From: Curtobacterium sp. HSID17257
GTDB lineage: Bacteria; Actinomycetota; Actinomycetes; Actinomycetales; Microbacteriaceae
Assembly: GCF_003989515.1 (NCBI RefSeq)
Contig: NZ_RBLU01000007.1
Span: 1 to 64,000, forward strand
Length of the DNA stretch: 64,000 bases
Reading direction: 5' to 3'
Shown here one piece after another: positions 43,624 through 60,186 of this stretch. The position numbers were made by a program, and so were the translations under genes. The notes beneath the pieces are model-generated. The model worked only from the letters and a program-made list of their open reading frames with translations, was not told where the DNA came from and searched no databases. The stretch's first letter is position 1. Each line of letters opens with the position of its first letter.

Positions 43624-43642
43624 CCTCGGTCGCCCTGCGGCG

Positions 43643-46600
43643 TCAGCGGCGCGGCTCGACGAGCTCGATGAACCGCGAGAGCAGCGACAGTCCGCTGATC
43701 GACGGGGGCAGCCCCGTGGTCAGCGCCGGTGAGTAGACGAGGTACGCCGCCCACTGCGCCCGGGACAACGCCACGTTGAGCCGATTCGGCATGAGCAGGA
43801 AGTCGAGTCCGCGCGGGATGTCCGCCGCGCTCGAGGCCGCGAGCGACGTGATCGACACCACGGCCTCGCGCCCCTGGAACATGTCGACCGTGCCGACCTG
43901 CGTGCCGCGGAGTCCAGCGCGGTCGAGGGCCTCGCGGATCAGAGCCCCCTGCGCGTTGTACGGCGCGACGACGATGACGTCCTCGTCTGTCAACGACCGG
44001 GAGACCTCGCCGTCGACCCAGCGGCGGCCGATCAGGTTCCGGGCGAGCTCGACGACCCTCGCGGCCTCCTCTTCCGACGACGTCGTGTTGCCGCTGTGCA
44101 CGACCGGCACCGGGTGGACGCCCGGGTCGAGGTCGTCCAGGTGCCGCTCGCTGACGATTGACGTCAACTGCCCGTCGTACGACAGCCCCGAGACCGACGC
44201 GGTCAGCGCGGGCTCCATGCGCCGGGTGTGCGCCAGGAAGTACCCGAACTCGGGCGGGAGCACGTGCTCGCCATCCGCCAGCCAGCCGAGCGCCGACTGG
44301 TCGACCGGCTCGGGGTGCGACCCCTGCGACACCTGCGGGAGCTGCTGCGGGTCACCGAGCAACAGCAGGCGCTGCGCGGCGATCGACGACGCGATGGTCG
44401 GGGCGAGCGAGAACTGCCCGGCCTCGTCGACCACGAGCAGGTCGAGGGAGCGCCGCGGGATCGTGCCCTCGTTCGCGAACGTCCACGCGGTGCCGCCGAC
44501 GACTCCCCCGGTGCCCGTCTCGGCGCACGACGACAGGAACGCCGAGACGGCTGCGTTGTTCTTCACCGGGGTCCACGCGGCGACCTCGAGCTCGTCCTCG
44601 GTCGCGCCGGACTTCGGCACCTTCACGACGCGGTCGGCGGGCACACCGGCGCGGACCACCGACGACAGGAAGTTCTCCGAGGTCGCATGCGACTGCCCGA
44701 CGACCCCGACGCGCCAGCCGTGCTCGCGGACGAGCCGGGCGACGACGTTCGACCCGACGTAGGTCTTGCCCGTGCCGGGAGGGCCCTGGATCGCCAGGTA
44801 CGACCGGTCGAGCCCGAGCAGCGTCGTGACGACCGCCGAGACGGTGTCGTCGCCGGCGACCGGAGCGAGTGCACCGCGCGGCGGCACCCGGCGAAGCAGG
44901 TCGAGCGCGGGGCCGGGCAGCATCGACGGCAGGGCGTCGAGGACCTCCTGGCCCCACTCGGCGATCGCCTCGGGCTGCGGCTTCGCCCGCGGCGGGGCGG
45001 CCGGTGCGAGCGCGACCGGGAAGTCGTGGTGCGGCTCCCCGCCGCCGACCGGCAGGCTCTCCTTCACCAGGACCTCGAACGCGTCGCCGTTGTCGGCCGC
45101 TTCCAGCACGACCGCGCGGGCCGACGCACCCTTCGAACCCGGCGCCGGAGCGGTGACCGACGGCGGGAGCGGGTCGTCGTAGACGAGGTGAGGCGCGCCT
45201 CCCGGCCGGATCCGCGAACCGGGCGCGAGCGTCCCGGACAGGCGGATCTCACGGGACTGCGAGCGGGCACGCGGCAGCGTGCCCCAGTCCCGTTCGACGG
45301 ACGCGCGCTCGACGACGAGGACGTCGCGGGTGTCGGCCCAGTCGTCGACGGGGTTGCGGAGGCGGTCGAAGTGGTCCTGCCAGAAGGTCTTGGCCTCGCG
45401 GCGGTGGTAGTCGATCGCGGCGGCAGCGAGCGCCAGGGCGGTCTGGTCGGCGTCGCGATCGAGGGGGTCGACGTCCGCGATCTGCGCGGCGAGGGCCGTG
45501 TACACGGGGTTCGGCTCGCGCTCGACGGGGATCGGCGGCAGGAGTTCCGTGTCCTCGGTCGCCGGCTCCGTGCGCGGGGGCCGGAGCGACAGCAGCCAGT
45601 CGCGGAGCCGCAGGGTCGAGCGGCAGTCGTAGGCGTTGTAGTCGGCGACCTGGTCGAGCATGCGCTGGCCGGTGGCGGCGTCGCCGTTGCGGAGCTCCTC
45701 GATTGCCTCGACGTAGGCGGTGATGCTGTCGGCGGCGTTCGTGACGTCACTGAGGCGGAGGTCCTCGCCCATGTACAGCGGCTCGAGCTTCTTGATCGAG
45801 TAGCTGTGGCTGCCGACCACCAGGGCCTTGCGGACGATCGGGTACAGGTCGACGAGGACGCCCGCGCGGAGCAGATCGTCGACATCGTCCTCCCCCACGC
45901 CGTGGCGAGCGGCGAGGGACAGCAGGTGCGTCCGCTCGTACGCGGCGTAGTGGTAGACGTGCATGCCGGGGTGCTGGGCGCGCCGCTCCTTGATGAAGGC
46001 GAGGAAGTCGACCAGCGCCTGGCGCTCGTCGCGGATGGTGTGCGCCCAGAAGGCGGTGAACTCGGCGCGGTCGTCGACCAGGCCGAACAGGTAGTCGATG
46101 CCCCAGTGCACACCGTCCTCGGTGTGCAGGGGGTCGCCCTCGAAGTCGAAGAAGACGTCGCCCGAGTCGGGCTCCGGGATCGCGTCGAGGGCACGGGGGT
46201 CGTGGAGTTCGAAGCGCGGCGTGGTCTTGTCGGCTCGGCCTGCTTGCTGCTCGGCTTCGGTCTCGGTCTGGAGGCGCGCCTGACGCACCAGCCGATCTTG
46301 CGTCGACCGCGACATGCCGGGCACGGCCGCGGTGCGGCCCGCCAGGTCGTCGATCGTCCGCACCCCCTGCCGGATCAGCTTCGTGCGCTGGTCGAGGCGC
46401 ATGCCGGCGACGAGGACCAGGTCGCGGTGCTGCTGCACCTGGGTCTGGCAGATCGCGCAGCGGCCGCAGCTGGAGTAGCGGGGGTCGCCCCACTGCAGTT
46501 CCTCGTGCTCCTGCATCCGCTCGCCGATGACCCGTTCGAGCTCGGCGCGCTGCGTGCGGTACACCGGGGCGATGTCGGCGAGGTCGTGCGTGGTGGTCGT

Positions 46601-47128
46601 GCGGTCGCCGAGGACGAGGTGGACCTGCTCGCCGGTGGGGATCCCGTGCGCCTGCATCTGCTCGGCGTAGGCGGCGAGCTGGAGCAGGGCGCTGATCTTG
46701 GCGTGGCGGGCGAGCTTGGTGTCGTAGACCTCGTAGGCGCCCTGGTCGTTGCGGAGGATGAAGTCCGCGAAGCCGATGAAGCCCGGGCGGTCGGGGGTGG
46801 GCGGCTCGTGGAAGGTCGGTTGGTAGAGGACGTCGGCACCGGTGGCGAAGCCGTCTCGCGCTTCGGCCGCTGCTCTGGCGTAGTCGACTGGGGCCGGTCG
46901 CTCGAACTCGACCACCTGGCGGGTCTGCTTGAGGATCTCGAGGTAGTCGAGCTCGTGCTGGTCCCCCAGGCGAGCGGTGCGCTCGAGCATGTCGTCGTGC
47001 TCGTCAGGCAGAGGGCCGCCGCGGCCGAGCTTGGCGTCGAGGCGGCGGAGGAACGCCCACTCGCAGGAGGCCCACATGCTGAGGTCGCTCGGGCTGAGGA
47101 GGACTTGGCGGTCGGTGGTGATCTGCAT
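43643..47128 (-). CDS. TM0106-type RecB-like nuclease fused to a superfamily 1 DNA helicase
   Basis: An 1161-aa fusion. The N-terminal PD-(D/E)XK nuclease (about 10-230) has FADFILRNDQGAYEVYDTKLA and a probable 4Fe-4S cluster made by Cys in WASCEWAF plus CGRCAIC, as in AddB/Cas4-like exonucleases. A middle RNase H-like region (DVFFDFEGDPLHTEDGVHWGIDYLFG) follows. The C-terminal Dna2/Upf1-like SF1 helicase has IQGPPGTGKTYVGSNVV (about 779) and LLVVDEAGQFS (about 898). It probably resects DNA in repair or defence. The GGGGGAG ribosome site supports ATG 47128. It borders the AT-rich restriction island but is itself native in base composition. Confidence 0.9.
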   Translation of the reverse strand: MQITTDRQVLLSPSDLSMWASCEWAFLRRLDAKLGRGGPLPDEHDDMLERTARLGDQHELDYLEILKQTRQVVEFERPAPVDYARAAAEARDGFATGADVLYQPTFHEPPTPDRPGFIGFADFILRNDQGAYEVYDTKLARHAKISALLQLAAYAEQMQAHGIPTGEQVHLVLGDRTTTTHDLADIAPVYRTQRAELERVIGERMQEHEELQWGDPRYSSCGRCAICQTQVQQHRDLVLVAGMRLDQRTKLIRQGVRTIDDLAGRTAAVPGMSRSTQDRLVRQARLQTETEAEQQAGRADKTTPRFELHDPRALDAIPEPDSGDVFFDFEGDPLHTEDGVHWGIDYLFGLVDDRAEFTAFWAHTIRDERQALVDFLAFIKERRAQHPGMHVYHYAAYERTHLLSLAARHGVGEDDVDDLLRAGVLVDLYPIVRKALVVGSHSYSIKKLEPLYMGEDLRLSDVTNAADSITAYVEAIEELRNGDAATGQRMLDQVADYNAYDCRSTLRLRDWLLSLRPPRTEPATEDTELLPPIPVEREPNPVYTALAAQIADVDPLDRDADQTALALAAAAIDYHRREAKTFWQDHFDRLRNPVDDWADTRDVLVVERASVERDWGTLPRARSQSREIRLSGTLAPGSRIRPGGAPHLVYDDPLPPSVTAPAPGSKGASARAVVLEAADNGDAFEVLVKESLPVGGGEPHHDFPVALAPAAPPRAKPQPEAIAEWGQEVLDALPSMLPGPALDLLRRVPPRGALAPVAGDDTVSAVVTTLLGLDRSYLAIQGPPGTGKTYVGSNVVARLVREHGWRVGVVGQSHATSENFLSSVVRAGVPADRVVKVPKSGATEDELEVAAWTPVKNNAAVSAFLSSCAETGTGGVVGGTAWTFANEGTIPRRSLDLLVVDEAGQFSLAPTIASSIAAQRLLLLGDPQQLPQVSQGSHPEPVDQSALGWLADGEHVLPPEFGYFLAHTRRMEPALTASVSGLSYDGQLTSIVSERHLDDLDPGVHPVPVVHSGNTTSSEEEAARVVELARNLIGRRWVDGEVSRSLTDEDVIVVAPYNAQGALIREALDRAGLRGTQVGTVDMFQGREAVVSITSLAASSAADIPRGLDFLLMPNRLNVALSRAQWAAYLVYSPALTTGLPPSISGLSLLSRFIELVEPRR

Positions 47129-47849
47129 GGGCTCCCCCGTCTCGTCGGTGCCCTGTGAGCCTATGGGCGACCACCGATGAGCCTCCTGCGAGATGAGGTA
47201 GTCCCGATGTTCTTCCGCGCAGCCACGCACCGGGGGAACAGCGATGCGGCAGTCGACCGCGGCCGCCGAGACAAAGGCTTGCCAAGTCGATCCCACTGTG
47301 GCAGATTCCGCGCCGTGCCAGGACCCGTGATTGCAACGGGGCCGAGCAATTTGAGGTTCGTCGGCAGCGAAGTCTTCAACAAGGACGTCGAACGCTGACT
47401 ATGAACAGCACCAAACAATAACGCCGCTCCGATTAGTCACCCAGTATCACGAATAACCGGGGCGCCTTACGCATTGACGATATCGACGAACATTCCACGG
47501 GGGCGAGGGAAGGCCGCACAAGATGAGCGCCGCTCCTCATACAATCACAAAGGCCGTCCCCGCCCGTACCGGTCGGCGATCGACGCCGACGGACACACAG
47601 TCAGATCCAATGCGGCGAAGGCAGGCAGATGAGCCCCGACCCGACCGTCGGCAGTCCAGCGGGCTTCCCGTGTGTCACCACCGCGCTGCAGCAGGACACA
47701 GCGGCGCGCCAGCCGCCACGGGCTCGATCACGAACAGCGCTGTTTCGACTACGGCGACCACCTACATAGGATACGCCCAGGGAGTTTCATGGGGAGCGCC
47801 GACGATGTTGCGGAACGTCGGCTGGACCGCCACGGAACACGGCGTCGAG

Positions 47850-47893
47850 ATGCCGGTTCCGCGGTGTCGCAATGCCGGTTCCGCAGTGCCGCC
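47850..47893. repeat. 22-bp tandem direct repeat
   Basis: Two adjacent 22-bp units starting ATGCCGGTTCCGC (47850-47871 and 47872-47893) differ at three or four positions. They lie in the non-coding region 400 nt before the GmrSD-type gene and could be binding sites or a remnant of recombination. Confidence 0.6.
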
Positions 47894-48262
47894 AACCAAC
47901 CCTAGCGCGAAGCAGAGACTTCGCAGGCAACAGCGGCGCAACGCGGGAGAACGGGAAAGGATATTCAATCGAGCCGACAAGCGCGCCGGATCAAACAGCG
48001 AGACACGCATCGACAGCGCGAAACCCCCGCCGACCAGCGGGCGGCTCTCCAGGTCGCGAGAGCAGCGGTTGAACACCGTTGGCGGGACCTCGTCGCTCGG
48101 CGGACACCCGTCGACAGCAACGCCCCGTCGAGGCTCAGAAACACGGAAGTCTCCTTGCGTTCTTCCGAGGCCCTCGCCCCGTGCGTATCGCACGTCCGTG
48201 CGCCTGTTGCACGGGTCTCGTCGCGATCAACCCTCGCCAAGCCGCCAACTCGGCGCACGGCC

Positions 48263-48271
48263 TACTATGCT
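48263..48271 (+). promoter_or_regulatory. -10 promoter element of the GmrSD-type gene
   Basis: Overlapping TACTAT and TATGCT hexamers lie 29-37 nt before ATG 48300, in an otherwise GC-rich stretch. No good -35 hexamer is visible at 17 nt. Confidence 0.35.
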
Positions 48272-48299
48272 CCACGCAGGAGCAGAAGGAAGTAGAGCC

Positions 48300-50135
48300 A
48301 TGCACGCCGCCGAGATAAACGTCGAAGAGCTCTTCAAGAGCGACAACCAACTCACCGTACCCCTATGGCAAAGACGCTACGCATGGCAACGTGATCAGTG
48401 GGCCGCACTTTGGTCTGACTTAATGCGTGTTGAAGAGGCAAGTTCGGGTGATGCGCCGATAAGCCACTTCGTTGGAAGCGTCGTTCTCCATGCGCAGGAG
48501 GGCACAGGGCTCCCATTTGAGTCCCACCGATATCTGATCGTCGACGGCCAGCAGCGCATCACGACCCTCACTATACTCATATGCGCAATCCGAGACCAGA
48601 TTGCAAGGCAAGAACAAGACGGGGATCGACGCGATCAGGTCATCACTCTTTACACATCCCGCTACCTTCGAAATACAAACCTGGCCGACGACCACCAGGA
48701 ACGGCTCGTTCTCCAGCAACCTGATCGCACGGCCTTGAGCCTGCTTGTCAACGGCGGCGAGCGGACCGGCACTACTCTGGTCGAGCAAGCCTACGAGTAC
48801 TTCTCAGCCGCCCTTTCGCGCCTGACGAGCGCGCGCGTTCAATCGCTAATCCGGATCATCGCTAAACGACTTACGGCCGTGTGGGTTGTTCTAGAACCGG
48901 GTGACAACGCGCATCGCGTGTTCCAAACGCTCAATTCGGGCGGCAGGCAGCTAGATCAATCAGACTTAGTACGGAATTATTTCTTCCTTCTCCTCGGGGA
49001 GGACGGTGACGAGTTCTACGATCTGCACTGGAAACACCTCGAGTCCGACATCCCGCAGGGTCGCCTTCAGTCATATCTCGCGGCATGGTCGGTCAGTCAG
49101 GGTTTCGCGGGCTCAAAGTCGGCCTTGTTTGCATACTTCCAAGATGACCTGGGCGGGAGCGAGCACAACAAAAGTGCCGTTCTTGAGTACGGGAAGAGCT
49201 TTGTGAAATCGGCGGCGCTATACCGGCACATTCTCTTTCCTGAAGAGTGGGTGGATGTTGATACCGCAACGAGGGGGACCCTGAAAACTCTTGCGCGATG
49301 GGGTACGGAGCCAGCCGAGGGGCTACTTCTATACCTCCTACGCGCACATCAAGCGGGCACCGTCGACGACGCGGAGCTCGGCACGGCCGGGGAGCTGATA
49401 CTCAGTTACCTCGCCCGGAGGTTCTTAGCGGGGTATGCGCCGAATCGCCATCGGTCAATCTTTGTTCGGTTGGCTCAAAAGTTGCGCGAACGCGATGACT
49501 TGCGAGGGCCTGAGCTGGTCAAGTTCCTTCGCGCGCTTCTGTCTGAACTAGACGGAGATAACGCTTGGCCCACGGACGCGTTCCTCGCCGAGAGAGCAAT
49601 CGGAACACCCCTCTACACCCCATCGAGAACGAAGTGGGTGTTCATCGTACTCGAGAGAATCAACGCGGAGTACTTTGACTATAAGGCCAATGTCCCTGGG
49701 TCTTTGAATGACTCGTCATATACAGTCGAGCACATCCTTCCACAGCGCCCGTCAACCGACTGGGAATCTGATCTACTTTCTTGGGGGGTTGGCAGCGTGC
49801 AGAATCTTCTCGAGACACACAAGGACGTCCTCGGGAACTTGACACTATCAGCAACGAACTCTCAGTTGGGGAACAAATCGCTCGCTCAAAAACAGAACAT
49901 ATATAAAGATGACACGCTCCGACTGAACCTTGGACTAATCACAGTGGACCGTTGGGATGCTGCTCGCATCAACCAGCGGGGACAGGAACTCATTTATCGC
50001 GCAGGTAAGGCGTTCGCCCCTCCACTTTCGAAGCAGCAGATTGCCTCCCTTGGGTTTTTCGACTCAAGTAGAGATTCTTTAGGAGCAGACGTCAGCGAAG
50101 ATTCCGACGAAGAGTCGAATACGCCCATGGGGTGA
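48300..50135 (+). CDS. GmrSD-type restriction protein (DUF262 + DUF1524)
   Basis: A 611-aa single-chain type IV-like restriction factor. The N-terminal DUF262 (GmrS-type, ParB-like NTPase) has VPLWQRRYAW and YLIVDGQQRITTL (DGQQR 82-86); the C-terminal DUF1524 (GmrD-type HNH nuclease) has YTVEHILPQ (His478), then LGNLTLSATNSQLGNKSL. GmrSD enzymes use NTP to cleave phage DNA carrying modified cytosine; target specificity here is unknown. GGAAG precedes ATG 48300. Base composition is more AT-rich than the surroundings, supporting horizontal transfer. A terminator-like hairpin (50255-50275) separates it from the methylase gene. Confidence 0.9.
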   Translation: MHAAEINVEELFKSDNQLTVPLWQRRYAWQRDQWAALWSDLMRVEEASSGDAPISHFVGSVVLHAQEGTGLPFESHRYLIVDGQQRITTLTILICAIRDQIARQEQDGDRRDQVITLYTSRYLRNTNLADDHQERLVLQQPDRTALSLLVNGGERTGTTLVEQAYEYFSAALSRLTSARVQSLIRIIAKRLTAVWVVLEPGDNAHRVFQTLNSGGRQLDQSDLVRNYFFLLLGEDGDEFYDLHWKHLESDIPQGRLQSYLAAWSVSQGFAGSKSALFAYFQDDLGGSEHNKSAVLEYGKSFVKSAALYRHILFPEEWVDVDTATRGTLKTLARWGTEPAEGLLLYLLRAHQAGTVDDAELGTAGELILSYLARRFLAGYAPNRHRSIFVRLAQKLRERDDLRGPELVKFLRALLSELDGDNAWPTDAFLAERAIGTPLYTPSRTKWVFIVLERINAEYFDYKANVPGSLNDSSYTVEHILPQRPSTDWESDLLSWGVGSVQNLLETHKDVLGNLTLSATNSQLGNKSLAQKQNIYKDDTLRLNLGLITVDRWDAARINQRGQELIYRAGKAFAPPLSKQQIASLGFFDSSRDSLGADVSEDSDEESNTPMG

Positions 50136-50506
50136 CTATGGCTCGCTCGTTCAAGGAGAACGCAGGACCCGCTAACCACATGCGTTCATCGAAGCAGAAC
50201 GGCCCGATGACTCTTGCGAGCCCCGCGAGGGCTAATCTTCCTCACCATTAGAAGGGCTCCGAAAACTCCGGAGCCGCACAAGGCTCCGGTCGCCCGCACT
50301 AGCGGTGCTGAACACGATCGTTGCGTCAGACAAGTGAGCCCGTCGTGGGAGCGCATGATGGACCAAACGCAGGCTTGGGGCTATCCGGCGCGGGGCTAGG
50401 CACGCCGCGCCGCGGCCGCTGCGGGCCTAGCCCGAGATGTCGGAGGCTCGTTGGTAGGCTAGCCCAGCCCTACCCCAGCCCAAGCTACCAAAACGAAAGA
50501 AGCCGA
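50136..50506. other. 371-nt intergenic region within the island
   Basis: Between the GmrSD gene and the methylase gene there is a terminator-like hairpin (50255-50275) and a C/G-rich stretch with GTAGGCT/AGCCCTAC symmetry around 50455-50474. No coding region or tRNA is recognised. The promoter of the methylase-nuclease pair should lie in its second half. Confidence 0.5.
50255..50275. terminator. Hairpin terminator after the GmrSD gene
   Basis: GGCTCCG (50255-50261) pairs with CGGAGCC (50269-50275) around a 7-nt A-rich loop, 120 nt beyond the GmrSD stop codon. No T-run follows. It separates the restriction gene from the downstream methylase-nuclease pair. Confidence 0.5.
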
Positions 50507-52117
50507 TTGAGCATCACAACGGCGGGACGCGAAACGAATACGAATCTCTTTGGTGACTATACGCACGCCGCCAAAAACCGGACTAGTGACGCGATAACTG
50601 CTGTTGCAGCCGACGACCGAGCGACTGCTCAGGTCAACTGGCTATCTGCCGTGGCATCGCTCGCACAGAATGTCCGGCCAGACTTGGCAGCGTCGGTAAG
50701 CGCCTACCTGGGAGTGGAGCCGTCAGGGAACAATCCGCTGGCGGACTTGTCTATCGGCGAGCTTGGCGTTGTTTATGAGGCGATCCTGGCCCTCTCCGAC
50801 CACCATAGCAGGAAAGCCGAAGGACAATACTTTACGCCGGATGACGTCGCCGAGTTTATGGCATCTCACCTTGCGTCGTACGAGCCGGGCGTTTGGATTG
50901 ATCCGTGCTGCGGCGTTGGCAACCTAGCGTGGCACCTGATCGCGAACTCCGACGAGGACGCACGTGGAGAATTCCTTCGAGGCCGCCTCATTCTCGTCGA
51001 TCGTGATCCCGTTGCACTGAGAACGGCAGTCGCCCTGCTGTGCTTGACCTTCGCTGACCTCGGTGACGAGGACGCGGTTGCTGCGCTGGCGGAGCACTCA
51101 ATTGTCAGCGACTTTCTACGCGATACTCCTCTTCCGCCCTACGACTTTGCCATATTCAATCCTCCCTACGCCCGCTCATCTGATTACGACTCCTATAGGA
51201 CAGCCGCTACTCGAGACCTGTACGCGCTTTTCATGGAGAAGATCAGCGCAACCACCGCCGGTTTCATATCGATCACCCCTTCGTCATATTTAAGCGGTAC
51301 GAAATACGCGCCCGTGCGTCAAGTTCTCAAGGAGCTGAATGGTGGGCGAGTTTATGTCTTTGATAACGTTCCAGACACCTGTTTCAGGGGCTTCAAGTAC
51401 GGAAGTTCGAATACATCGAAAACGAATTTCGTTCGAGCAGCCATCACCGTTGTGTCCCCGAAAGATAAACGATGGCTAATTACTCCGATACTTCGATGGG
51501 CAAGTCGATCGCGTTCGAAGACTTTCAAGAATGCTTGGCGCTGGCTGACGCCTTTGAAAGTCTCTCCGGACGGCACTTGGGCGAAGGTGATGCCAGGATT
51601 TGAAGATCTTTGGGACGTAGCCGTATCGGCCCCTAAGCTTCGCGAACTGACACAGCACCATCCCTCTCCCTGGCGTTTAGAAGTTGCATCTACTCCCCGG
51701 TACTACATTTCTGCCAGCACCCGCGACCTCGACAGATCTTCAAAACATGTTTTATTCTTTACAAGCGAGGAGGCGAGAGATCGCGGCTATCTCGCCCTAA
51801 ACAGCTCCATGGCCTACTGGTGGTGGCGAACTACAGACGGCGGCATCTCCCTGTCCAAGCGTACGCTTCTATCGGTGCCAGTACTGACTGCACCGGAAGA
51901 AGCGCCTGCACATTTGATAGAAAAACTTCGGCAATCAGACATTGCCGATGTGGTTGTCAAACTCAACTCAGGCCGTTTGAACGAGAACGTGAAGCGTTCG
52001 CGAGAACTAATAGCGGAAGTTGACCGGGCGGTTTTCGGTGAAAATCACCCGGACTTCAGCAGCGTTTACGCGGCAGATATGTTCGCTGAAACGGAAGGAT
52101 CCAATCTTGTTCATTGA
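50507..52117 (+). CDS. N6-adenine DNA methyltransferase (N-6 DNA methylase family)
   Basis: A 536-aa gamma-type amino-methyltransferase. GQYFTPDDVAEFMASHL is the N6_Mtase (HsdM/Eco57I-like) entry motif, SAM-binding motif I is VWIDPCCGVGNLAWHL (about 130-145), and catalytic motif IV is FNPPYARS (about 217-224). The C-terminal part (HLIEKLRQSDIADVVVKLNSGRLNENVKRSRELIAEVD) may form a target-recognition and dimer region. TTG 50507 is chosen because AAAGAAG lies before it and no ATG/GTG fits; this start is moderately certain. It overlaps the nuclease gene by 11 nt. It probably protects host DNA from that nuclease. Confidence 0.85.
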   Translation: MSITTAGRETNTNLFGDYTHAAKNRTSDAITAVAADDRATAQVNWLSAVASLAQNVRPDLAASVSAYLGVEPSGNNPLADLSIGELGVVYEAILALSDHHSRKAEGQYFTPDDVAEFMASHLASYEPGVWIDPCCGVGNLAWHLIANSDEDARGEFLRGRLILVDRDPVALRTAVALLCLTFADLGDEDAVAALAEHSIVSDFLRDTPLPPYDFAIFNPPYARSSDYDSYRTAATRDLYALFMEKISATTAGFISITPSSYLSGTKYAPVRQVLKELNGGRVYVFDNVPDTCFRGFKYGSSNTSKTNFVRAAITVVSPKDKRWLITPILRWASRSRSKTFKNAWRWLTPLKVSPDGTWAKVMPGFEDLWDVAVSAPKLRELTQHHPSPWRLEVASTPRYYISASTRDLDRSSKHVLFFTSEEARDRGYLALNSSMAYWWWRTTDGGISLSKRTLLSVPVLTAPEEAPAHLIEKLRQSDIADVVVKLNSGRLNENVKRSRELIAEVDRAVFGENHPDFSSVYAADMFAETEGSNLVH

Positions 52118-53318
52118 GACAATACCTCGCCCGACCAAGAAAGACATAGCGCGCGATATTGCTCGGATTCTCGCTATACCGGAGGCGGAGATGTCCCGAG
52201 GGGGCACCGTTAAGAGCGACTTTCTGGACCGAATCTCGGAAGCACTCCTCGGGTCCAGCACTAATCAGGAGGATACGTATCGTAAGGCCGAGTTTGTACT
52301 TTCCGGCTTAGGCGAGACGTACGATCCGTGGTGGGATACGAGCGAAGCCCAAGGCCCGACCGGTGGGGGCACAGTCACGACTCGCGCATACTCGCGGATT
52401 CGAGCAAATCTCGCCCGCGAGCAGCGCTGCTTTGCAGTACCCGGCAGTGTGGCTGCAGGGCGCGAGGAATCCCACACATTCAATGGGCGACCGCACAGAA
52501 TCCCACTAGCGGAAGCCGGTCCCGGAAGTAATCTACTCTTCTTCGAAGAGACCTCGGATGGGTATGTTGCTACAGGTGTCGGCTCGTTGTTAGTCACGGC
52601 TCCTGGTTGGACCGACCCGTGGAAAATCCAGTGGACCTACCGACCCTTTGAGACTCCGCTAGTCTTTGATTCCCCTTTCGGGCTACCATCTGGTGTTTTT
52701 GAAATCTCGGTCGCATCCTTCGAGAGCTTTGGGACCGCGACTGCGGAGCTCGAGTCAACTAATTCCGGTCGCGCAGAAGCGGCCATTGCAGAACGACTGA
52801 CCGATACGTACAAGGTAGACGACGTTCGGCTCAATTCGGTAGCCATCCCTCCTCGCTCGGACGTTGGCGGCCCAATTGCGGCGCTCACCGAAGTCGCCTA
52901 TACCGAACAGAATACGGGTGCTCTCAAGCCAGCACATGATGCACCAACGTTCCGGCGTCCTCAAAATCGTGCCCTTTCTCGCGAGATTGAACGAAGAGGG
53001 GTGCAGTTAGCTCACCGCGCTTTGACAGAAGATGGTTGGCTACTTGAGAGGGATTGCCAGAAAGATGGCGTTGGATACGACTTTGTTTACCTGAAGAACG
53101 GGCGTCGAATTCACGTTGAAGTCAAGGGGATACAGGGTACAAGAATAGACTTCAATTTGACGCCGAAAGAATGGTGGCGAGCGCTCACAGACGAAGATTG
53201 GCTGCTGGTCACAGTAACGAACGCACTCTCTCCAGCCCAGTCGACGATTTCTGTCTTCACCGGGAATCAGGTCCGTGCGGCACCGCGATCGGTTGTGAGC
53301 TACCGCTTGGCGATGTGA
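52107..53318 (+). CDS. DUF3883-domain putative restriction endonuclease
   Basis: A 403-aa protein partnered with the upstream methylase (11-nt overlap). The C-terminal DUF3883 (NO-VEIN nuclease-like) domain, about 299-370, has a PD-(D/E)XK-type core: DGVGYDFVYLKNGRRIHVEVKG (Asp, then E-V-K) preceded by a helix with AHRALTEDGW. The N-terminal 290 residues (helical KKDIARDIARILAIP, then a beta-rich region with SNLLFFEETSDGYVATGVGSLLV) are unrecognised and may hold sequence recognition. TTG 52107 follows GGAAGGA. With the methylase it forms a plausible two-gene restriction-modification system of no standard architecture. Confidence 0.75.
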   Translation: MFIETIPRPTKKDIARDIARILAIPEAEMSRGGTVKSDFLDRISEALLGSSTNQEDTYRKAEFVLSGLGETYDPWWDTSEAQGPTGGGTVTTRAYSRIRANLAREQRCFAVPGSVAAGREESHTFNGRPHRIPLAEAGPGSNLLFFEETSDGYVATGVGSLLVTAPGWTDPWKIQWTYRPFETPLVFDSPFGLPSGVFEISVASFESFGTATAELESTNSGRAEAAIAERLTDTYKVDDVRLNSVAIPPRSDVGGPIAALTEVAYTEQNTGALKPAHDAPTFRRPQNRALSREIERRGVQLAHRALTEDGWLLERDCQKDGVGYDFVYLKNGRRIHVEVKGIQGTRIDFNLTPKEWWRALTDEDWLLVTVTNALSPAQSTISVFTGNQVRAAPRSVVSYRLAM

Positions 53319-53466
53319 ATTCCCAACCGTTGGATGAATAGGATTTTTTCTCCTACCTACTGGAATAGGTTGCCGATCCAACTGAGCGGGAACGTGCCCT
53401 GTCACGATGCTGTGAGTAGGCTCGACTACAACGGCCGGATGCTTCGGTCACCGGCGACCGAAAGAG

Positions 53467-53667
53467 GTGCTGGCTACGACGACCCCGGGCAACGCCGACT
53501 CGGCCGACGTCCTCGCCGCGATGACGCAGGGCACCCCAGCAGGCGTCCCGGTGCAGCCGGTCGACATCGCCCGCGCCGTCCTCTGGGTGGTCTCCGACCA
53601 GGCCGCGTTCGTCACCGGCGGCACCATCGACGTCGACGGCGGGATCGCGTCGACGCGCATGAGCTGA
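53467..53667 (+). pseudogene. 3' remnant of an SDR oxidoreductase gene at the island boundary
   Basis: About 66 codons encode the C-terminus of an SDR: TPGNADSADVLAAMTQGTPAGVPVQPVDIARAVLWVVSDQAAFVTGG then IDVDGGIASTRMS. The cofactor motif and the YxxxK active site are missing, and the upstream sequence is unrelated AT-rich island DNA with a stop codon in frame at 53413. The junction is near 53.45-53.47 kb. High GC returns exactly here, so the fragment marks the right edge of the acquired segment. No matching 5' part is seen on the left side. Confidence 0.75.
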
Positions 53668-53712
53668 CCGCGCCTGCGCTCACTGCGACCGCCGAGCGGT
53701 TGACGGAACCAC

Positions 53713-53764
53713 GTGACGGACGGGAGGCGCGGTGCCAGCTGGCACCGCGCCTCCCGTCCGTCAC
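53713..53764. terminator. GACGGACGGGAGGC-type hairpin, copy 4 (perfect 52-bp palindrome)
   Basis: The left arm 53713-53738 is exactly complementary to 53739-53764, with AGCT at the centre and no spacer. It lies 46 nt after the SDR remnant and 4 nt before the end of the convergent gene, so it can terminate from both sides. It is the most perfect copy in the window. Confidence 0.75.
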
Positions 53765-53767
53765 CGC

Positions 53768-54283
53768 TCAGGTCTCCGGGTGATCGCCGCCGTCCGTCTG
53801 GAGGGGTACGAGCCACGGCGCGATCCGGACGAGCTGCTCCCAGCCCGCCCCGAGCACGGCGTCGATCTCTTCGACCGGCACCGGGAACAGCCTGCCGACG
53901 AACGCCTCCCACCCGTGCGCGTCGAGCTCGCCGGCTCGCACCTCGTAGGGCTGCCACTCCTCGGGCACGAGCTCGAGACGGTCCATCGCGTCGTCTCGCC
54001 GATCGGCCACGACCGCCTCGGCCGGCACGGAGATCGGGGCCGCCTGCAGGAACCGCACGACCTGCCCGATCGACCCGCTGTCGGGAACAGGCTGCACGAG
54101 CTCGATCTCAGCGGCGACGCTGCCGTTGCCGACCAGCGACAGGGCTGCCGTCTCGTCGTCGATGGTCGCGAACCACGTCTGCGGAGGGGCATCGGCATCT
54201 CGTCGCGCGACGACACCGGTCGGCTCGGCGACGAGAACACCCTCGCGACGGACGACGAACACCTCTCCCACGTACCGGCTCAT
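53768..54283 (-). CDS. Hypothetical protein
   Basis: A 171-aa soluble acidic protein (VGEVFVVRREGVLVAEPTG; TWFATIDDETAALSLVGNGSVAAEIELVQPV; HGWEAFVGRLFPVPVEEIDAVLGAGWEQLVRIAPWLVP). It has no signal peptide or helix suggesting a membrane role, and no recognised family. ATG 54283 follows AACAAT by 7 nt; another ATG three codons upstream is possible. It ends at the perfect palindrome 53713-53764. Confidence 0.65.
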   Translation of the reverse strand: MSRYVGEVFVVRREGVLVAEPTGVVARRDADAPPQTWFATIDDETAALSLVGNGSVAAEIELVQPVPDSGSIGQVVRFLQAAPISVPAEAVVADRRDDAMDRLELVPEEWQPYEVRAGELDAHGWEAFVGRLFPVPVEEIDAVLGAGWEQLVRIAPWLVPLQTDGGDHPET

Positions 54284-54421
54284 CACACCCATTGTTGCCG
54301 GTGGGTGCACGGCCGCCAAGGGCCGCACGAGGTATTGATGTTTCAAACCCGAGTCAGTGCGAATGAGACCGATGCCGCGGCCGACGACCACGGCTTGACG
54401 ACCGACCACCAGGAGACCCCT

Positions 54422-54727
54422 GTGCAGCCCTTGCGCCTCACCTTCGTCGTCGTCGGATCGATGGTGGGCAGTGTCGTGACACTCTCTGCTGCAGCGATCG
54501 TGATGACAGCCCTCGCCGCGATAACCGGTGCGCCCACCAGCGTCCCCGGTCTCATCACCGCCACGCCCGGCGACGGACCCACGCTCGCGACGGCGTCGAC
54601 GGGCGATGCGACCACGGTCTGGTTCATCGTCGTCACGCTCGGGTTCGTCGCGGCCGACCTGCTCGTGGTCCGGCGGCGCCGGACCCAGCGCGTGCACCCC
54701 GCCGGCGCCGCGGATCGACGGAGGTGA
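54422..54727 (+). CDS. Small hypothetical membrane protein
   Basis: A 101-aa protein with two hydrophobic helices (LTFVVVGSMVGSVVTLSAAAIVMTALAAI; TTVWFIVVTLGFVAADLLVV) separated by a Gly/Thr/Pro loop, and a basic tail. CCAGGAG before GTG 54422 supports this start; an ATG at 54340 would add 27 mainly hydrophilic residues. No family is recognised. It converges on the DUF1653 gene with 3 nt between. Confidence 0.55.
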   Translation: MQPLRLTFVVVGSMVGSVVTLSAAAIVMTALAAITGAPTSVPGLITATPGDGPTLATASTGDATTVWFIVVTLGFVAADLLVVRRRRTQRVHPAGAADRRR

Positions 54728-54730
54728 CGG

Positions 54731-54946
54731 TCAGGCCAGTCGGACGAACCGCGGCCCCTCGTACCCGTCCCGAGCCACGTGCGCCGTGAAGTCGGCGAGC
54801 GACCGCACCCAGTGCCCGCGCTCCCCGTACAGCGCCTGGTACACGACGATCGGCTCCTCGGTCTCGACGTCCTTCGCCACGAGGACCACCTCGTACTCCC
54901 CACCCTTGAAGTGCCGGTACCGCCCAGGGGTCACGTCGCTGCTCAC
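54731..54946 (-). CDS. DUF1653 domain protein
   Basis: A 71-aa protein that is almost entirely a DUF1653 domain: GRYRHFKGGEYEVVLVAKDVETEEPIVVYQALYGERGHWVRSLADF and GYEGPRFVRLA. Members are small beta-barrel proteins of unknown function. GTG 54946 is preferred since TACCAT lies 7 nt upstream (leaderless) and the domain starts soon after; ATG 54964 would put that hexamer inside the coding sequence. Confidence 0.82.
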   Translation of the reverse strand: MSSDVTPGRYRHFKGGEYEVVLVAKDVETEEPIVVYQALYGERGHWVRSLADFTAHVARDGYEGPRFVRLA

Positions 54947-55175
54947 GCGGCCGATGGTACCCATGCGACCATCGTTCGACGGCGTGATCGTCTTCGTGGT
55001 GCTGCACCGCAACCTCGACCGCGTCCGTCGCTCCCTCGCGACGCTCGACACCGCAGCGGCTCGAGCGAGGCGTCCACTCCCCTGCACCGGATATCCGACA
55101 CAGAGCCTTGTCCACCGATCCGTCATCGTTCGCGCGACGACGGTGCACGCGTGCGACCCGTCGCACGGTGGAACA

Positions 55176-55625
55176 GTGGAACAGTGGGAAGCCGATGACG
55201 CACGCCGCCGACACATGGCGCGTTTCGGTCGACGGGACACGGCACCCGAGCTCGCCGTCCGACGAGAGCTTCACCGCCGTGGCCGTCGGTTCTTCGTCGA
55301 TCGTCAGGTCAGCCGCCGGTGCCGCGTCCGCCCCGACCTCGTGTTCCCTCGTGCTCGGATCGCGGTGTTCATCGACGGCTGCTTCTGGCACCGCTGCGAG
55401 GAGCACGTGCAGCTCCCGCAGGCGAACGCCGAGCTGTGGCGCCGGAAGCTGCTGGCGAACCGGCAGCGCGACGCCCGGAACCAGGCGATCCTGACGACCG
55501 AGGGCTGGCGGGTCCTCCGCTCGTGGGAGCACGACGATCCCGCAGCAGTCGCAGATCGCGGCGAGGACGAGCTCGACCGCTGGGCCGCCATCGTCGGCCG
55601 ACCGCAAGGGCAGGGACGAGAGTGA
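55176..55625 (+). CDS. vsr: Very short patch repair endonuclease
   Basis: A 149-aa Vsr endonuclease. FGRRDTAPELAVRRELHRRGRRFFVDR, the metal-binding Asp in RVRPDLVFPRARIAVFIDGCFWHRCEEH (with H-x-C-x2-H zinc site) and NQAILTTEGWRVLRSWEHD match the family. Vsr nicks 5' of T in T:G mismatches arising by deamination of 5-methylcytosine, so a Dcm-type methylase is expected; none is in the window, and the island methylase is of the adenine type. CACGGT plus 6 nt precedes GTG 55176. Confidence 0.92.
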   Translation: MEQWEADDARRRHMARFGRRDTAPELAVRRELHRRGRRFFVDRQVSRRCRVRPDLVFPRARIAVFIDGCFWHRCEEHVQLPQANAELWRRKLLANRQRDARNQAILTTEGWRVLRSWEHDDPAAVADRGEDELDRWAAIVGRPQGQGRE

Positions 55626-55653
55626 CGGGAGGCTGTGCCCCGACCGTCGGGCG

Positions 55654-56298
55654 TCAGAGGGTGATCTGACCGCCTGCCCACTCCTGCAGCGTGGCATCGT
55701 GGGTCGCCACCACGATCGCGCTCCCCGCACTCCGGAGCTGCTCGAGTGCGTCCCGCACCAGCACCGCGCTCATCTCGTCGAGCGAGGCCGTCGGCTCATC
55801 TGCGAGCACCAGCAACGGCCGTTGTACGAGCACCCGCGCGACGGCGACCCGCTGCTGCTCCCCACCGCTGAGGAACCCCGCCCGCATCCGGAGGCGACCC
55901 CCGAGCCCCACCGCGTTCGCCGCCTCCTGGACCCGCTCGTCGCGCTCACGCGGAGGGACACCGGTCGGCCGCACGACGCCGAGGTTCTGCTCGATCGTCC
56001 ACTGCGGCACGACCGCGTGGTCCTGCACGACGAACCCGACGCGGTCTCGCCGCATCAGCCGCCGCGCGCGACGAACACTCCGGTGCACGTCCTCGCCCCG
56101 CAACCGGACAGCCCCTCGCGTCGGGGTCTGCAGCCCGCCGAGACAGCGGAGCAGCGTCGTCTTCCCCTGCCCCGACGGCCCGAGGACTGCGACGGCGTTC
56201 CCCGGTCGGACGGACAGGGACAGCTCGTCCCACAATCTCCGGGGCCCGATGTCGAACCCCAGTCCGTCGACTTCGAGCACCGGCGCTCCGATCACCAT
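55654..56298 (-). CDS. ABC transporter ATP-binding protein of a lactococcin-972-type bacteriocin operon
   Basis: A 214-aa ATPase (MacB/LolD-like): Walker A GPSGQGKTT (40-48), Q-loop VVQDHAVVPQ, signature LSGGEQQR (143-150), Walker B VLADEPTASLDE and switch His in VVATHDAT. It overlaps the membrane-protein gene by 7 nt and is the third gene of the cluster precursor - membrane protein - ATPase, the standard order for lactococcin-972-like bacteriocins. It probably powers immunity or export together with the 639-aa membrane protein. Confidence 0.88.
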   Translation of the reverse strand: MVIGAPVLEVDGLGFDIGPRRLWDELSLSVRPGNAVAVLGPSGQGKTTLLRCLGGLQTPTRGAVRLRGEDVHRSVRRARRLMRRDRVGFVVQDHAVVPQWTIEQNLGVVRPTGVPPRERDERVQEAANAVGLGGRLRMRAGFLSGGEQQRVAVARVLVQRPLLVLADEPTASLDEMSAVLVRDALEQLRSAGSAIVVATHDATLQEWAGGQITL

Positions 56299-58211
56299 GT
56301 CTTCCTCCACTCGTCCGCTCCACGGGTCGGGATCACGGCGGATACCACGCCGAGCAACACGAGGGCGCCCACTCCGCTGGCGACGCCTGCGGTGAGGATC
56401 ACGTCCCCACGAGCTCCCGACAACGCACTCGTCACCGCGGCGGTGGTCAGGGCTGTGCCGCTCGCGCCGACGAGGAACCACCGGTGCCGGACCAGCGGGT
56501 GCCGTCCGACCAGGTACTGCACGCGCCCGAGTCGAGCGGTGCGGATGCGGTGTTCGCCCACGAGCGAGATCGCTGCGAGCACGAGGGCCGACAACGCAGC
56601 ACCGACGGCCAGCAGCAGCGTGTGGCGCTCGGTCCGGAGTTCTCCGAGTTGCCGTTCCACGCGGGCCCCCACGCGGTCGACCTGCAGGACGATGTCCGCG
56701 AGCCCGGCAGCCCGCAGCTGGCGTTCGAGCGCCGCGCGGTCGGCGAAGCGCACCTCGCCGTTCGCGACGCCGGTCCCGACCTGATTCGGTGCGAGGTCGC
56801 TCGGGTCGGGGACGACCAACACGGGAATGTCCGGCCACGTCGGCAGCAGCGGTTCGATCCCGTTCGTCCAGAGGATCGCGGACTCGGAGACGGCTGCGGT
56901 CGAGCGCACCCGTCGGATCCGGATGTCGAGTGGTCGCGGAGGCTGACGTCCTTCCACCTGCCAACCGGTCGCGATGTCCGCCGCTGCCGCATCGCGCAGC
57001 GCGTCGCTCTCGCCGGCGAGGGCATCGGGCACGAGCAGGAGTGGTTGCCCGTGCGGAGGGAGGCCGCCCGGCACGAGTGCACGCAGGGACGCGCTGGCGT
57101 CGCCGACCAGTGTGAACCGATCCGTGAAGGAGGAGTACGCCATGCTGGCGTCCCCTCGCGCGAGTGCTCCGGTCGCGATCGCCCCCAACGCCTGGTCCTG
57201 CTCGAGGGTCGTCGACGCTGTGCCGAGCACGACGTCGTCCCCGTGCGCAGCTTCGGCGACGAGGATCCGTTCGGCCTCGGCGGTGGTCCGCTGACGGTCC
57301 TGCAGGCACTGCACGTCGGCGACGGCCACGACGACGAGCGACATGCCGGCGGCGGCGACGAGGACCATCGGCCATCGAGCCTCCGCAGCGCGGTGGGTCG
57401 CGGCAGCGCTCAGCAGGGCGCAGCCGACGTGCAGCACGAGGGCGGCCAGCAACGCCGCGAGGACGCACACCACGACGACGACCGTCGTGAACCGGAGCGC
57501 CGGAGCGCTGGCCCCGTGCACCGCGAGCGCCACCGGCGGACCCACGCATGCTGCGACCACCACTGGGCCCGTCAGGCGACCGAGGTCCAGGGCTTCCGCG
57601 CAGGCCACGCTCCCACCGGACCAGCCCGCTCGCAAGCGAAGGTCCTGCCGTCCGGCACGGCGTCTCGACTCGGCGACGAGCGCGATCCCCAGTCCGAGCA
57701 GGACGGCGACCGTGACGAGCGCGATGGTCGGCCGCGCCAGGACCACGACGAGCGCCTCGACCGGAGCGGGCGTGGTGTCGACCGTCGTGTACCCGGCCTG
57801 CCGCAGCTCCTCGGTGAACCGTCGGACCGACCGTCCGTCGCCCTCGACCGCCATCGGACCGAGCAGGTCGAGCGTGCCACCGTCACCGATCGGCCGTGTG
57901 CTGATCGCCGCACCGATCCCGGGCTGCGCTGCCGTCCCCCGGAACGTGTAGGCGGTCCACACCCCGGGCCGTCCGTCACGGTCCGGAACCAGGAGCGAGA
58001 CTCGCACCCCGGAGCGCTCAGCCGCAGCGGTGATGTCTCGGATGTGTTCGACCTTCGTCTCGCCGACCGGCAGCTCAGTGAGCTCGAGCGTCGCCCGCCC
58101 GGCGAGGAGCCCGAGTGCCTCGACCTCGCCGACGACGGACACCGCGAGCACTGCCGACAGCGCGAGGACGGCTGCCACCGCCAGGACGGTGGCAGCCGCG
58201 AAGTTCCTCAT
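56292..58211 (-). CDS. Bacteriocin-associated integral membrane protein (DUF1430/FtsX-like)
   Basis: A 639-aa membrane protein with an N-terminal helix (RNFAAATVLAVAAVLALSAVLAV), a large extracytoplasmic region, and clusters of helices in the centre (TIALVTVAVLLGLGIAL; VVVVCVLAALLAALVLHV) and at the C-terminus (LLLAVGAALSALVLAAISLVG; DVILTAGVASGVGALVLLGVVSAV). This matches the large membrane protein that accompanies lactococcin-972-type bacteriocins and forms an ABC system with the next gene, thought to give immunity. ATG 58211 overlaps the precursor stop codon (ATGA). No classical FtsX motif is strong, so family assignment uses context. Confidence 0.8.
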   Translation of the reverse strand: MRNFAAATVLAVAAVLALSAVLAVSVVGEVEALGLLAGRATLELTELPVGETKVEHIRDITAAAERSGVRVSLLVPDRDGRPGVWTAYTFRGTAAQPGIGAAISTRPIGDGGTLDLLGPMAVEGDGRSVRRFTEELRQAGYTTVDTTPAPVEALVVVLARPTIALVTVAVLLGLGIALVAESRRRAGRQDLRLRAGWSGGSVACAEALDLGRLTGPVVVAACVGPPVALAVHGASAPALRFTTVVVVVCVLAALLAALVLHVGCALLSAAATHRAAEARWPMVLVAAAGMSLVVVAVADVQCLQDRQRTTAEAERILVAEAAHGDDVVLGTASTTLEQDQALGAIATGALARGDASMAYSSFTDRFTLVGDASASLRALVPGGLPPHGQPLLLVPDALAGESDALRDAAAADIATGWQVEGRQPPRPLDIRIRRVRSTAAVSESAILWTNGIEPLLPTWPDIPVLVVPDPSDLAPNQVGTGVANGEVRFADRAALERQLRAAGLADIVLQVDRVGARVERQLGELRTERHTLLLAVGAALSALVLAAISLVGEHRIRTARLGRVQYLVGRHPLVRHRWFLVGASGTALTTAAVTSALSGARGDVILTAGVASGVGALVLLGVVSAVIPTRGADEWRKTW

Positions 58212-58582
58212 CCGCGGCGGGCCCAGAACGCCTGGTTCCCGGAAACCGCCTTCGGCCGGTGGGCGTACGCGACCTTCGTCGGTGGCTGCCATGCCGATCG
58301 GGTCACGACGCCGTGCGACTTCACCGATGCACGGTGCGTGGATCCGTTGTGCTGGTAGACCGAGTGCACCTCCCCGCTCCACACGCCGTAGGTCCACGTG
58401 CCGCCCTCCGGGTAGGACGTCCCGTTCCGGGTCTCGCCGACCCGGTCAGCGGACGCGCCTCCCTCGACCACCCGTCCGGACGACGCCGGAGAGTCCGACG
58501 CCACCGCCGCGGTCGCTCCGACCGGCCCGATGGCGGCCACGACGACCGCGGCGGCTGCGATCGAGACCAACTTCTTCCTCAC
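58208..58582 (-). CDS. Lactococcin 972-family bacteriocin precursor
   Basis: A 124-aa secreted peptide. A Sec signal peptide (KKLVSIAAAAVVVAAIGPVGATAAVAS, cleavage about residue 28) is followed by the Lcn972 hallmark GGTWTYGVWSGEVHSVYQHNGSTHRASVKS and a W-x-P-P-T-K-V-A-Y-A-H-R ending. The Lactococcus prototype is a non-modified bacteriocin that binds lipid II and blocks septum formation. GTG 58582 has a strong GAGGAGG ribosome site. Unusual for the family is a mature N-terminal extension of about 30 residues (DSPASSGRVVEGGASADRV) and a Trp-Ala-Arg-Arg end. Confidence 0.88.
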   Translation of the reverse strand: MRKKLVSIAAAAVVVAAIGPVGATAAVASDSPASSGRVVEGGASADRVGETRNGTSYPEGGTWTYGVWSGEVHSVYQHNGSTHRASVKSHGVVTRSAWQPPTKVAYAHRPKAVSGNQAFWARRG

Positions 58583-58684
58583 GATTGCTCCTCCTCAACT
58601 CCCGACGGGCTCCCATCGGAAGCGCCACCGTAGCAACCGGAACACCGCGCGTCATGCTTGGTATATCAACCGTGTACGAGGAAA

Positions 58685-58730
58685 ACGGACGGGAGGCGCG
58701 GTACCAGCTGGCACCGCGCCTCCCGTCCGT
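58685..58730. terminator. GACGGACGGGAGGC-type hairpin, copy 5
   Basis: A 23-bp stem with a single mismatch (58685-58707 with 58708-58730) has no loop spacer. It lies 26 nt after the end of the quinone oxidoreductase gene on the minus strand and before the bacteriocin promoter. The central bases are nearly the same as copy 4 (GGTACCAG/CTGGCACC). Confidence 0.7.
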
Positions 58731-58756
58731 CATCGTGTCGCGACCGCGACCCGCAC

Positions 58757-59689
58757 TCACCAGGTGAGCACGAACCGCCCCCGCGTCCCACCAGCAGCCA
58801 GCCGCTCGTGCGCCTCAGCCGCACGCGCAGCGGGCAGCACCTCGGCCACCCGCGGCGTGAGGACCCCGTCCTCCACCGCCTGCCGCAGCTCCTCGAGCAG
58901 GTCGAACGACGTGTACTCCGAGAACACCATGATCCGCTCGAACCGGATGCCGCGAGCGCCGTTGCCCTCCCAGCCCCGCACGTCCGCGAAGAACCCGCCG
59001 TCCCGCACCGCGTCGACGACCTCGTCCCGCTGCACCGCGGCGTCGGCGAGCGCGTCGACCCCGCCGTGCACGATGCCCCGGACGGCCGCTGCGAACCCGT
59101 CGCCCCGGCGCACCATGTGGTCCGGCCCGAGGGAGCGCACGAGGTCCTCGTCCTTCGGTGCTGCGTCGGCGATGACCGTGATGCCGCGCTGCTCCGCGAG
59201 CTGCACGACGTAGTTGCCGAGCAGCCCGGCGGCCCCGGTGACGGCGAGCGTGTCGCCCTCCGCCAGATCGGCGCGCGCGAGGATCTGCAGCGCGGTCAGC
59301 CCGTTCATCGGGACGGTCGCCGCCTCCTCGATCGACAGGCCCGCCGGGATCCGTGTGAAGGAACCGACCGGTGCGACGAGGTACTCGACGTAGGCGCCGC
59401 CGTGCTCGGACAGCGGCAGGGCCATCGCCATGACCTGGTCACCGACCTGCCAGTCCTCGACGTCGGGTCCGACCTCGTCGATCACCCCGGCGGCGTCCAT
59501 CCCGGGCACGTACGGCGGCGAGGCCTCGGACGAGTCCCGCTGCCCCTCGCGCACCCCGGTGTCGGTGGGGTTCACGGCGAACGCCTGCACCCGGATGCGG
59601 ACGGTGCCGGGGCCGGCGTGCGGCTCCGGGACCTCGTGGACGGCGAGGGCTTCGGGCCCTCCGAACGTTTCGACTCCGACGACCTTCAT
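58757..59689 (-). CDS. Zinc-independent MDR oxidoreductase (NADPH:quinone reductase-like)
   Basis: A 310-aa MDR enzyme with N-terminal GroES-like fold (VVGVETFGGPEALAVHEVPEPHAGPGTVRIRVQAFAVNPTD, YVPGMDAAGVIDEVG) and NADPH-binding TGAAGLLGNYVVQLA. No structural or catalytic zinc ligands are present. It is a paralogue of the gene at 1418-2446 with the same domain order but clearly different sequence. GGAGG precedes ATG 59689. A reduction of quinones or enones with NADPH is likely; substrate unknown. Confidence 0.85.
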   Translation of the reverse strand: MKVVGVETFGGPEALAVHEVPEPHAGPGTVRIRVQAFAVNPTDTGVREGQRDSSEASPPYVPGMDAAGVIDEVGPDVEDWQVGDQVMAMALPLSEHGGAYVEYLVAPVGSFTRIPAGLSIEEAATVPMNGLTALQILARADLAEGDTLAVTGAAGLLGNYVVQLAEQRGITVIADAAPKDEDLVRSLGPDHMVRRGDGFAAAVRGIVHGGVDALADAAVQRDEVVDAVRDGGFFADVRGWEGNGARGIRFERIMVFSEYTSFDLLEELRQAVEDGVLTPRVAEVLPAARAAEAHERLAAGGTRGRFVLTW

Positions 59690-59784
59690 GTCCTCCGGTC
59701 TACGCGCCCCGGACCGTGCGGACTCAGCGGACGTTGCAGGAGCGAACATCCGCGCGGCCGACACCGAGCCGTCCCGCTCGGTCG

Positions 59785-60186
59785 CTACGACAGGGCCTGG
59801 GCGACCTGGAGGAAGAGCATCGGCAGGAGCGTGCAGACGGCCGACACCATGACGACCGCGCACACGGCCGGTGCCGCAGCGCCGATCGGCCGGCCGAGCC
59901 GCTCCTGCCGCCGCATGCGGAGGAGGCCCAGGGCGGGCACTCCGATACCCATGACCGCGGCGATCACGCCCAGCAGCAGCCTGCCGTCGCCGGACCACTG
60001 GGCCGACGAGGGTCCCACGGTGGACAGGACCGATGCCAGCGCCAACGACCACCCGATGAAGAGGGACACGATGCTGCCCGCGATCCACCCGGTGCTCGTC
60101 AGGTCCTCGCCGCCCGGCTGATCCTCGCCATCCGGCTGGCGCTTGCCACCCGGCTGACGCTCGCCACCGGGACCGCTGCGGGTCAC
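59785..60186 (-). CDS. Membrane protein of a paralogous cluster, short form
   Basis: A 133-aa protein: a hydrophilic repeat (GGERQPGGKRQPDGEDQPGGED) then three helices (GWIAGSIVSLFIGWSLALASVLSTVGP; LLLGVIAAVMGIGVPALGLL; AAAPAVCAVVMVSAVCTLLPML). The helices closely follow the first 120 residues of the next protein (GWIAGSIVALFVGWWLALASVLSTAGP), so it is a truncated paralogue without the outer domain. GTG 60186 overlaps the preceding stop (GTGA), so it is co-translated. The repeat-rich N-terminus may vary by slippage. Confidence 0.65.
   Translation of the reverse strand: MTRSGPGGERQPGGKRQPDGEDQPGGEDLTSTGWIAGSIVSLFIGWSLALASVLSTVGPSSAQWSGDGRLLLGVIAAVMGIGVPALGLLRMRRQERLGRPIGAAAPAVCAVVMVSAVCTLLPMLFLQVAQALS

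Follow-up and report, generated by a model that had tools for sequence, protein, structure and literature searches.

A predicted Type II restriction-modification pair, an adenine methylase and a DUF3883-domain protein, at a defence hotspot of an actinobacterial genus

DUF3883 is listed as a presumed Type II restriction endonuclease group in the REBASE-based HMM library of Anton and Roberts (PMC10609329, section 3.2), and the part of PMC3710099 drawn on here terms it 'a novel REase domain' and describes SNF2-DUF3883 operons. The literature searched for this work yielded no biochemical characterisation of a restriction enzyme from this group. We take the Pfam family NOV_C (PF13020) to be the DUF3883 family. 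Here we describe two overlapping genes, M and R, in the window, by which we mean the whole 64,000-base stretch of DNA analysed (bases 1-64000 of contig C230 in a 3.35-Mb draft genome), and we consider it likely, from what the genes are predicted to encode, that they make up a two-gene Type II restriction-modification system. M would methylate adenine, presumably at N6 rather than N4, within a short sequence of the host genome. R would cut DNA that is unmethylated at what we suppose to be the same site, using residues D325, E338 and K340 of a C-terminal DUF3883 domain, and its N-terminal 285 residues would recognise that site. Like the REBASE group, as that section presents it, the locus has a solitary DUF3883 protein accompanied by a DNA methylase, a likeness at the level of the domain. 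The features discussed below are collected in Table 1.

Table 1. Positions of the features discussed; those with an L number are in the coordinates of that locus, all others in those of the window.
Feature	Position	Strand	Basis or remark
TM0106-family RecB-like nuclease with SF1-type helicase part, 1217-aa frame	43643-47296	-	
Acquired island (GmrSD, M and R)	47178..53472	.	coding GC 54-56% vs ~72% in flanking genes
GmrSD-type restriction enzyme gene, 611 aa, probable ATG start	48300..50135	+	Pfam
M gene, predicted gamma-type N6-adenine DNA methyltransferase, 536 aa	50507..52117	+	Pfam, PADLOC, motifs
R gene, candidate restriction endonuclease, 403 aa, TTG start	52107..53318	+	frame, NOV_C match
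N-terminal 285 residues of R, no known family, presumed DNA-recognition part	52107..52961	+	inference
NOV_C/DUF3883 PD-(D/E)XK-like domain of R, residues ~294-373, with D325, E338, K340	52986..53225	+	Pfam
Putative restriction enzyme beside PDLC03219 methylase, L055	7426-8622		D...E-(F/V)-K motif
Putative restriction enzyme beside PDLC03219 methylase, L056	7422-8531		D...E-(F/V)-K motif
Putative restriction enzyme beside PDLC03219 methylase, L057	7404-8513		D...E-(F/V)-K motif

An earlier note on this DNA had proposed a restriction-modification candidate in which the methylase gene shares 11 nt with the gene of a 403-aa protein that has a nuclease core in its DUF3883 C-terminus, and both the arrangement and the family assignments bear this out. 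The M frame is read from a TTG, with the longest open frame opening upstream at TTG 50321. Its product matches N6_Mtase (2e-8) and Eco57I (1e-5) in Pfam, and the PADLOC MTase_II profile PDLC03219 at 5e-99 (329.9 bits, profile positions 23-459 of 504); the latter match spans most of the protein and places M in that family. Motif I reads DPCCGVGN and motif IV NPPY, and residues D132, C135, G136, G138 and N218-Y221 are invariant in a five-row alignment of relatives, with the SAM-binding and catalytic motifs intact, as in a Type II methylase. The gamma class is read from motif order (I, then IV, then a long C-terminal part), and by that order M is gamma-type. Relatives of M were found neither in the viral_contigs nor in the phages collection. 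One plasmid match (L007) was rejected as a PDLC03219 relative, its protein scoring far better as DrmMI or Type IIG; the methylase of another (L008) is known from annotation only and lies beside Type I genes.

R lies on the same strand as M, as a separate and adjacent gene in the Type II manner, and since it is downstream of M and overlaps it, the two are probably co-transcribed and translationally coupled. Its product matches NOV_C at 2.5e-10 (40.7 bits against a cut-off of 22.1). When R was aligned with 34 other NOV_C domains, drawn from 34 of the 37 other places in genomes of the same phylum, D325 was shared by 33 of the 34, E338 and K340 by all 34, and E355 was E or Q in all 34; L015 (equal to L014 in score and frame length), G516:41981 and G432 were omitted. 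The D...ExK arrangement is the pattern of PD-(D/E)XK nucleases, and the predicted catalytic core of R is conserved. The earlier note had made its proposal depend on just such conservation among homologues. With the NOV_C profile, the solved structures gave three matches to E 1: an endo-beta-N-acetylglucosaminidase scored best (0.044), the Hjc resolvase came next at 0.8, and the third, a hypothetical protein, reached 0.85. A single-sequence AlphaFold2 model of R was uninformative (pLDDT 35, pTM 0.21).

Outside its C-terminal domain, no homologue of R was found in the searches made. No relatives came from plasmids, phages, genome_contigs or viral_contigs, the last two searched with short peptide patterns, and a family search with R in 397 other genomes gave just two weak matches, L002 and L003. 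We judged both to be chance: by eye, L002 is a repeat protein of adhesin type, and L003 lies on the strand opposite a larger open frame. L006, a short segment within a kinase-like protein (by eye), was also taken for a chance match. Since close relatives by which to gauge selection on R were not found, one might suppose that M has a regulatory role or stands as an orphan, and that R has decayed or lost its activity. We regard this as very improbable: R retains an intact 403-codon frame and its core catalytic residues, and a Shine-Dalgarno-like stretch (GGAAGGA) stands just before its TTG.

The relatives of M are few and informative about its partner. At E 1e-30, the window's genome was the only one among 396 of its phylum to match PDLC03219, and at E 1e-20 there were four among the 292 genomes in the phylum of G788 (G788 included), which from sequence traits we presume to be Cyanobacteriota; PDLC03219 is rare in the genomes sampled. 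At one of the four loci (L005) the contig ends at the methylase. In all three that can be read past it (L055-L057), whose methylases are 28-29% identical to M, the next same-strand gene is nuclease-like and similar in size to R, encoding 369-398 aa with a D...E-(F/V)-K motif recognised by eye. The PDLC03219 family therefore seems to come as a methylase-endonuclease pair. These partners differ from R: none of the three has a significant Pfam family or a NOV_C match, and although the L055 and L056 partners resemble one another (4e-14), neither shows significant similarity to R by BLASTP. Methylases of this family thus go with more than one kind of nuclease, in the manner of Type II systems.

The N-terminal part of R was described in the earlier note as matching nothing familiar, and that description stands. 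Neither Pfam nor PADLOC gave a match to residues 1-285 at E 10, a search in which the HMMER filters mask most weak matches, and phmmer showed no similarity to the N-termini of 19 other short NOV_C proteins. In hhalign, R residues 1-290 were compared with 11 targets, namely nine N-terminal regions of short NOV_C proteins and the full-length L055 and L056 partner nucleases, and the probabilities were no better than those of shuffled R. These residues probably set specificity by recognising the site. Alternatively, R could depend on modification, as Type IV-like nucleases do, and use its N-terminus to read modified bases, with M either marking the cell's own DNA or being an unrelated neighbour. 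By eye, residues 140-190 (LLFF...GVG...FETPLVF) do resemble PUA/EVE-like stretches of L042 and L049, and the gene next door encodes a GmrSD, a modification-dependent type of enzyme. However, a PUA/EVE-like reader in R found no support in Pfam at E 10 or in hhalign with its shuffled controls, and the 11-nt overlap between M and R, together with the tendency of the M family to bring its own nuclease, speaks against this alternative, which we consider unlikely. We would give about the same slight credence to the idea that the N-terminus is an undescribed DNA-recognition fold, conferring a new site or a dependence on modified phage DNA, and that the island, with GmrSD and the pair together, hits both unmodified and modified phage genomes.

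Separately, the N-termini of some short actinobacterial NOV_C proteins look PUA/SRA/EVE-type by eye (L044, 5431-6369; L049, 5854-6762; L042, 5521-6363). Pfam gave no domain of this type in the N-termini of L044 and L042, and it is possible that the NOV_C proteins of the three loci are modification-dependent nucleases.

Returning to the candidate Type II pair, its composition sets it apart from other systems with which it shares a component. Type I and Type III systems likewise have a methylase of the N6 superfamily, yet the island carries no HsdS, HsdR or Res gene: no HsdS or HsdR was found among 10 neighbouring proteins in Pfam and seven in PADLOC, and no Res helicase-nuclease partner was found, R being 403 aa with NOV_C as its sole match. 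The earlier note's statement that helicase and specificity subunit are absent is therefore upheld for the island. Helicase-DUF3883 proteins and TmtA of PADLOC (which we take to be Tiamat) share DUF3883 with R, which matches TmtA at 1.8e-9 in its C-terminal part only. Stretches of R residues 217-385 align with the C-terminal end of three models of 1302-1782 positions, and R is not a TmtA member. Unlike the helicase-DUF3883 proteins, R is short, has no ATPase or helicase domain that we could find, and is paired with a methylase.

How unusual is such a pairing? The earlier note had called the system one of unusual type, on the view that DUF3883 is usually joined to helicases and does not serve as the sole partner of a methylase. 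Among 246 genomes of the window's phylum, NOV_C was found in 36 at E 1e-5, at 38 places, of which 26 lie in open frames of at least 1073 aa, termed helicase-like by length alone, and 12, the window's included, in short ones. A motif scan gave an adjacent DNA methylase at none of the 11 other short loci, the motif hits in L043 being excluded from judgement. A DPPY motif in L046 sits in a 402-aa lipoprotein-like protein, a DPPY protein in L045 belongs to the same gene run as a ZorD-like helicase, and an m5C methylase frame in L042 is 1.5-1.9 kb off on the opposite strand. Within this phylum the expectation of helicases was right, given the 26 long frames of 38 and the 11 short loci without an adjacent methylase.

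The picture differs in the phylum of G788, where 53 of the 292 genomes carry NOV_C. Of the 58 places concerned, 19 are in short frames. Fifteen of the 19 were examined, the other four (in G814, G803, G881 and G850) having open frames of 94-127 aa, and 10 of the 15 have an adjacent DNA methylase on the same strand (L093, L094, L095, L097-L100, L102, L103 and L105). Pfam confirmed the methylase in nine of these; that of L094 was assigned from motifs and near identity to L095. At the remaining five (L091, L092, L096, L101 and L104, with L092 truncated by the contig end) there is no adjacent methylase, or a DPPY-type protein in another setting only. The positives are not independent: L094 is nearly the same as L095, homology seems likely within each of the groups L098-L100 and L102/L103, and the 10 loci perhaps represent six lineages. 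With these loci, and with DUF3883 in the published list of presumed Type II groups (in section 3.2 of PMC10609329), the arrangement is already known, and the claim of an unusual type is not borne out. What distinguishes the present pair from the other DUF3883 pairs is the unmatched N-terminal region of R and the predicted N6 type of its methylase; seven of the 10 paired loci (L097-L100, L102, L103 and L105) have m5C methylases.

Two of these arrangements deserve mention in their own right. In L098 (3829-7370), L099 (4285-7708) and L100 (4871-8342), a NOV_C protein of 469-483 aa has an m5C methylase frame on either side, so that a DUF3883 system with two methylases recurs in three genomes. L094 (5863-10112) and L095 (2123-6372), from two genomes, hold a near-identical cassette of an N6 methylase, an m5C methylase and a 441-aa NOV_C protein, adjoining a resolvase-like gene (by eye) and with differing outer genes; the cassette looks recently mobile.

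The pair belongs to an island, with edges placed where matches to other genomes end, that was acquired horizontally. Over roughly 47.2-53.5 kb, GC falls from ~71% to ~55%. At third codon positions it ranges from 0.56 to 0.62 in GmrSD, M and R, whereas the three flanking genes measured have 0.83-0.94. Searched by themselves at E 1e-5, positions 47300-53400 of the window matched no DNA from the 20 other genomes sampled in the genus. The left-hand TM0106 gene was matched in all 20 (in G1088 in part), with bases 40001-60000 as the query. In five genomes (L069-L073) the flank matches, up to 47177 and from ~54740, sit 11-43 nt apart, so that the island and 1.3 kb on its right are absent there; part of that 1.3 kb is retained in G1095 and G1094. 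The site as a whole (47177-54740), from the TM0106 gene to a DUF1653 gene (L069-L085), is variable in the genus, with flanks elsewhere ~0.7 to 36 kb apart. Between these two flanking genes lie other restriction or defence genes in two of the genomes. Those of G1095 encode an m5C methylase together with a Type II helicase-domain protein; those of G1094 encode a Type IIG-like enzyme, DrmD/DruE-like helicases and a Type II REase-like protein. The insertion site is a defence hotspot.

To the right of the island, a Vsr-type very-short-patch endonuclease gene was seen at 55155-55625 (NCBIfam vsr, 2.7e-31 on a longer frame; PHROG endonuclease). A perfect 26+26-nt palindrome (GTGACGGACGGGAGGCGCGGTGCCAG and its complement) stands at 53713-53764, with a further copy at 58685-58737. 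Its 40-base core has 77 dispersed copies in the genome with 0-3 mismatches, and a reversed control pattern gave none. The element is abundant and has the look of a REP-like sequence or a bidirectional terminator.

The remaining gene of the island encodes the GmrSD-type enzyme, with Pfam matches to GmrSD_N (2e-32) and GmrSD_C (5e-17) on a longer frame from 47523. Because GmrSD, M and R share a single insertion of the same composition, all three might form one functional unit in which the methylase complements GmrSD, a link that the earlier note had raised. This finds no support in the relatives of GmrSD, which, at an E of 1e-40, turn up in seven of 298 further family genomes. No (N/D/S)PP(Y/F/W) motif was present near any of the seven in the frames checked within ~1.5 kb (at least 120 aa, third-position GC above 0.55; m5C motifs lay outside the scan), and R itself gave nothing beyond chance matches. 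GmrSD probably works alone, since its relatives occur without the M-R pair. Moreover, a gap of 371 nt in which no gene is listed lies between it and the pair, and we think a single unit highly unlikely; GmrSD and the pair are probably together by chance of acquisition. The earlier note had also placed a terminator in this gap. Hairpins are present there, but the terminator was not confirmed: no stem followed by a T-tract was listed on the + strand, and compared with shuffled sequence the two halves of the gap gain little in folding (z -1.56 and -0.52).

Taken as a whole, the Type II reading is favoured by the strength of the PDLC03219 match, the intact motifs of M, the conserved core of R, the paired relatives and a site used by other restriction genes. 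It is weakened by R having yielded no homologue beyond its C-terminal domain, by the lack of an adjacent methylase at the other short actinobacterial loci, and, in the phylum of G788, by the five loci that are not positive and the non-independence of the 10 that are.

We suggest that the pair is a clean and short candidate for testing DUF3883 as a stand-alone Type II enzyme, a role merely presumed by the REBASE authors in section 3.2 of PMC10609329. At E 0.001 the genome has M as its sole match to PF02384, the adenine-methylase family covered, and within that scope an m6A motif from long reads would be easier to assign to it. Apart from that, the pair would simply add another restriction system to a defence hotspot.
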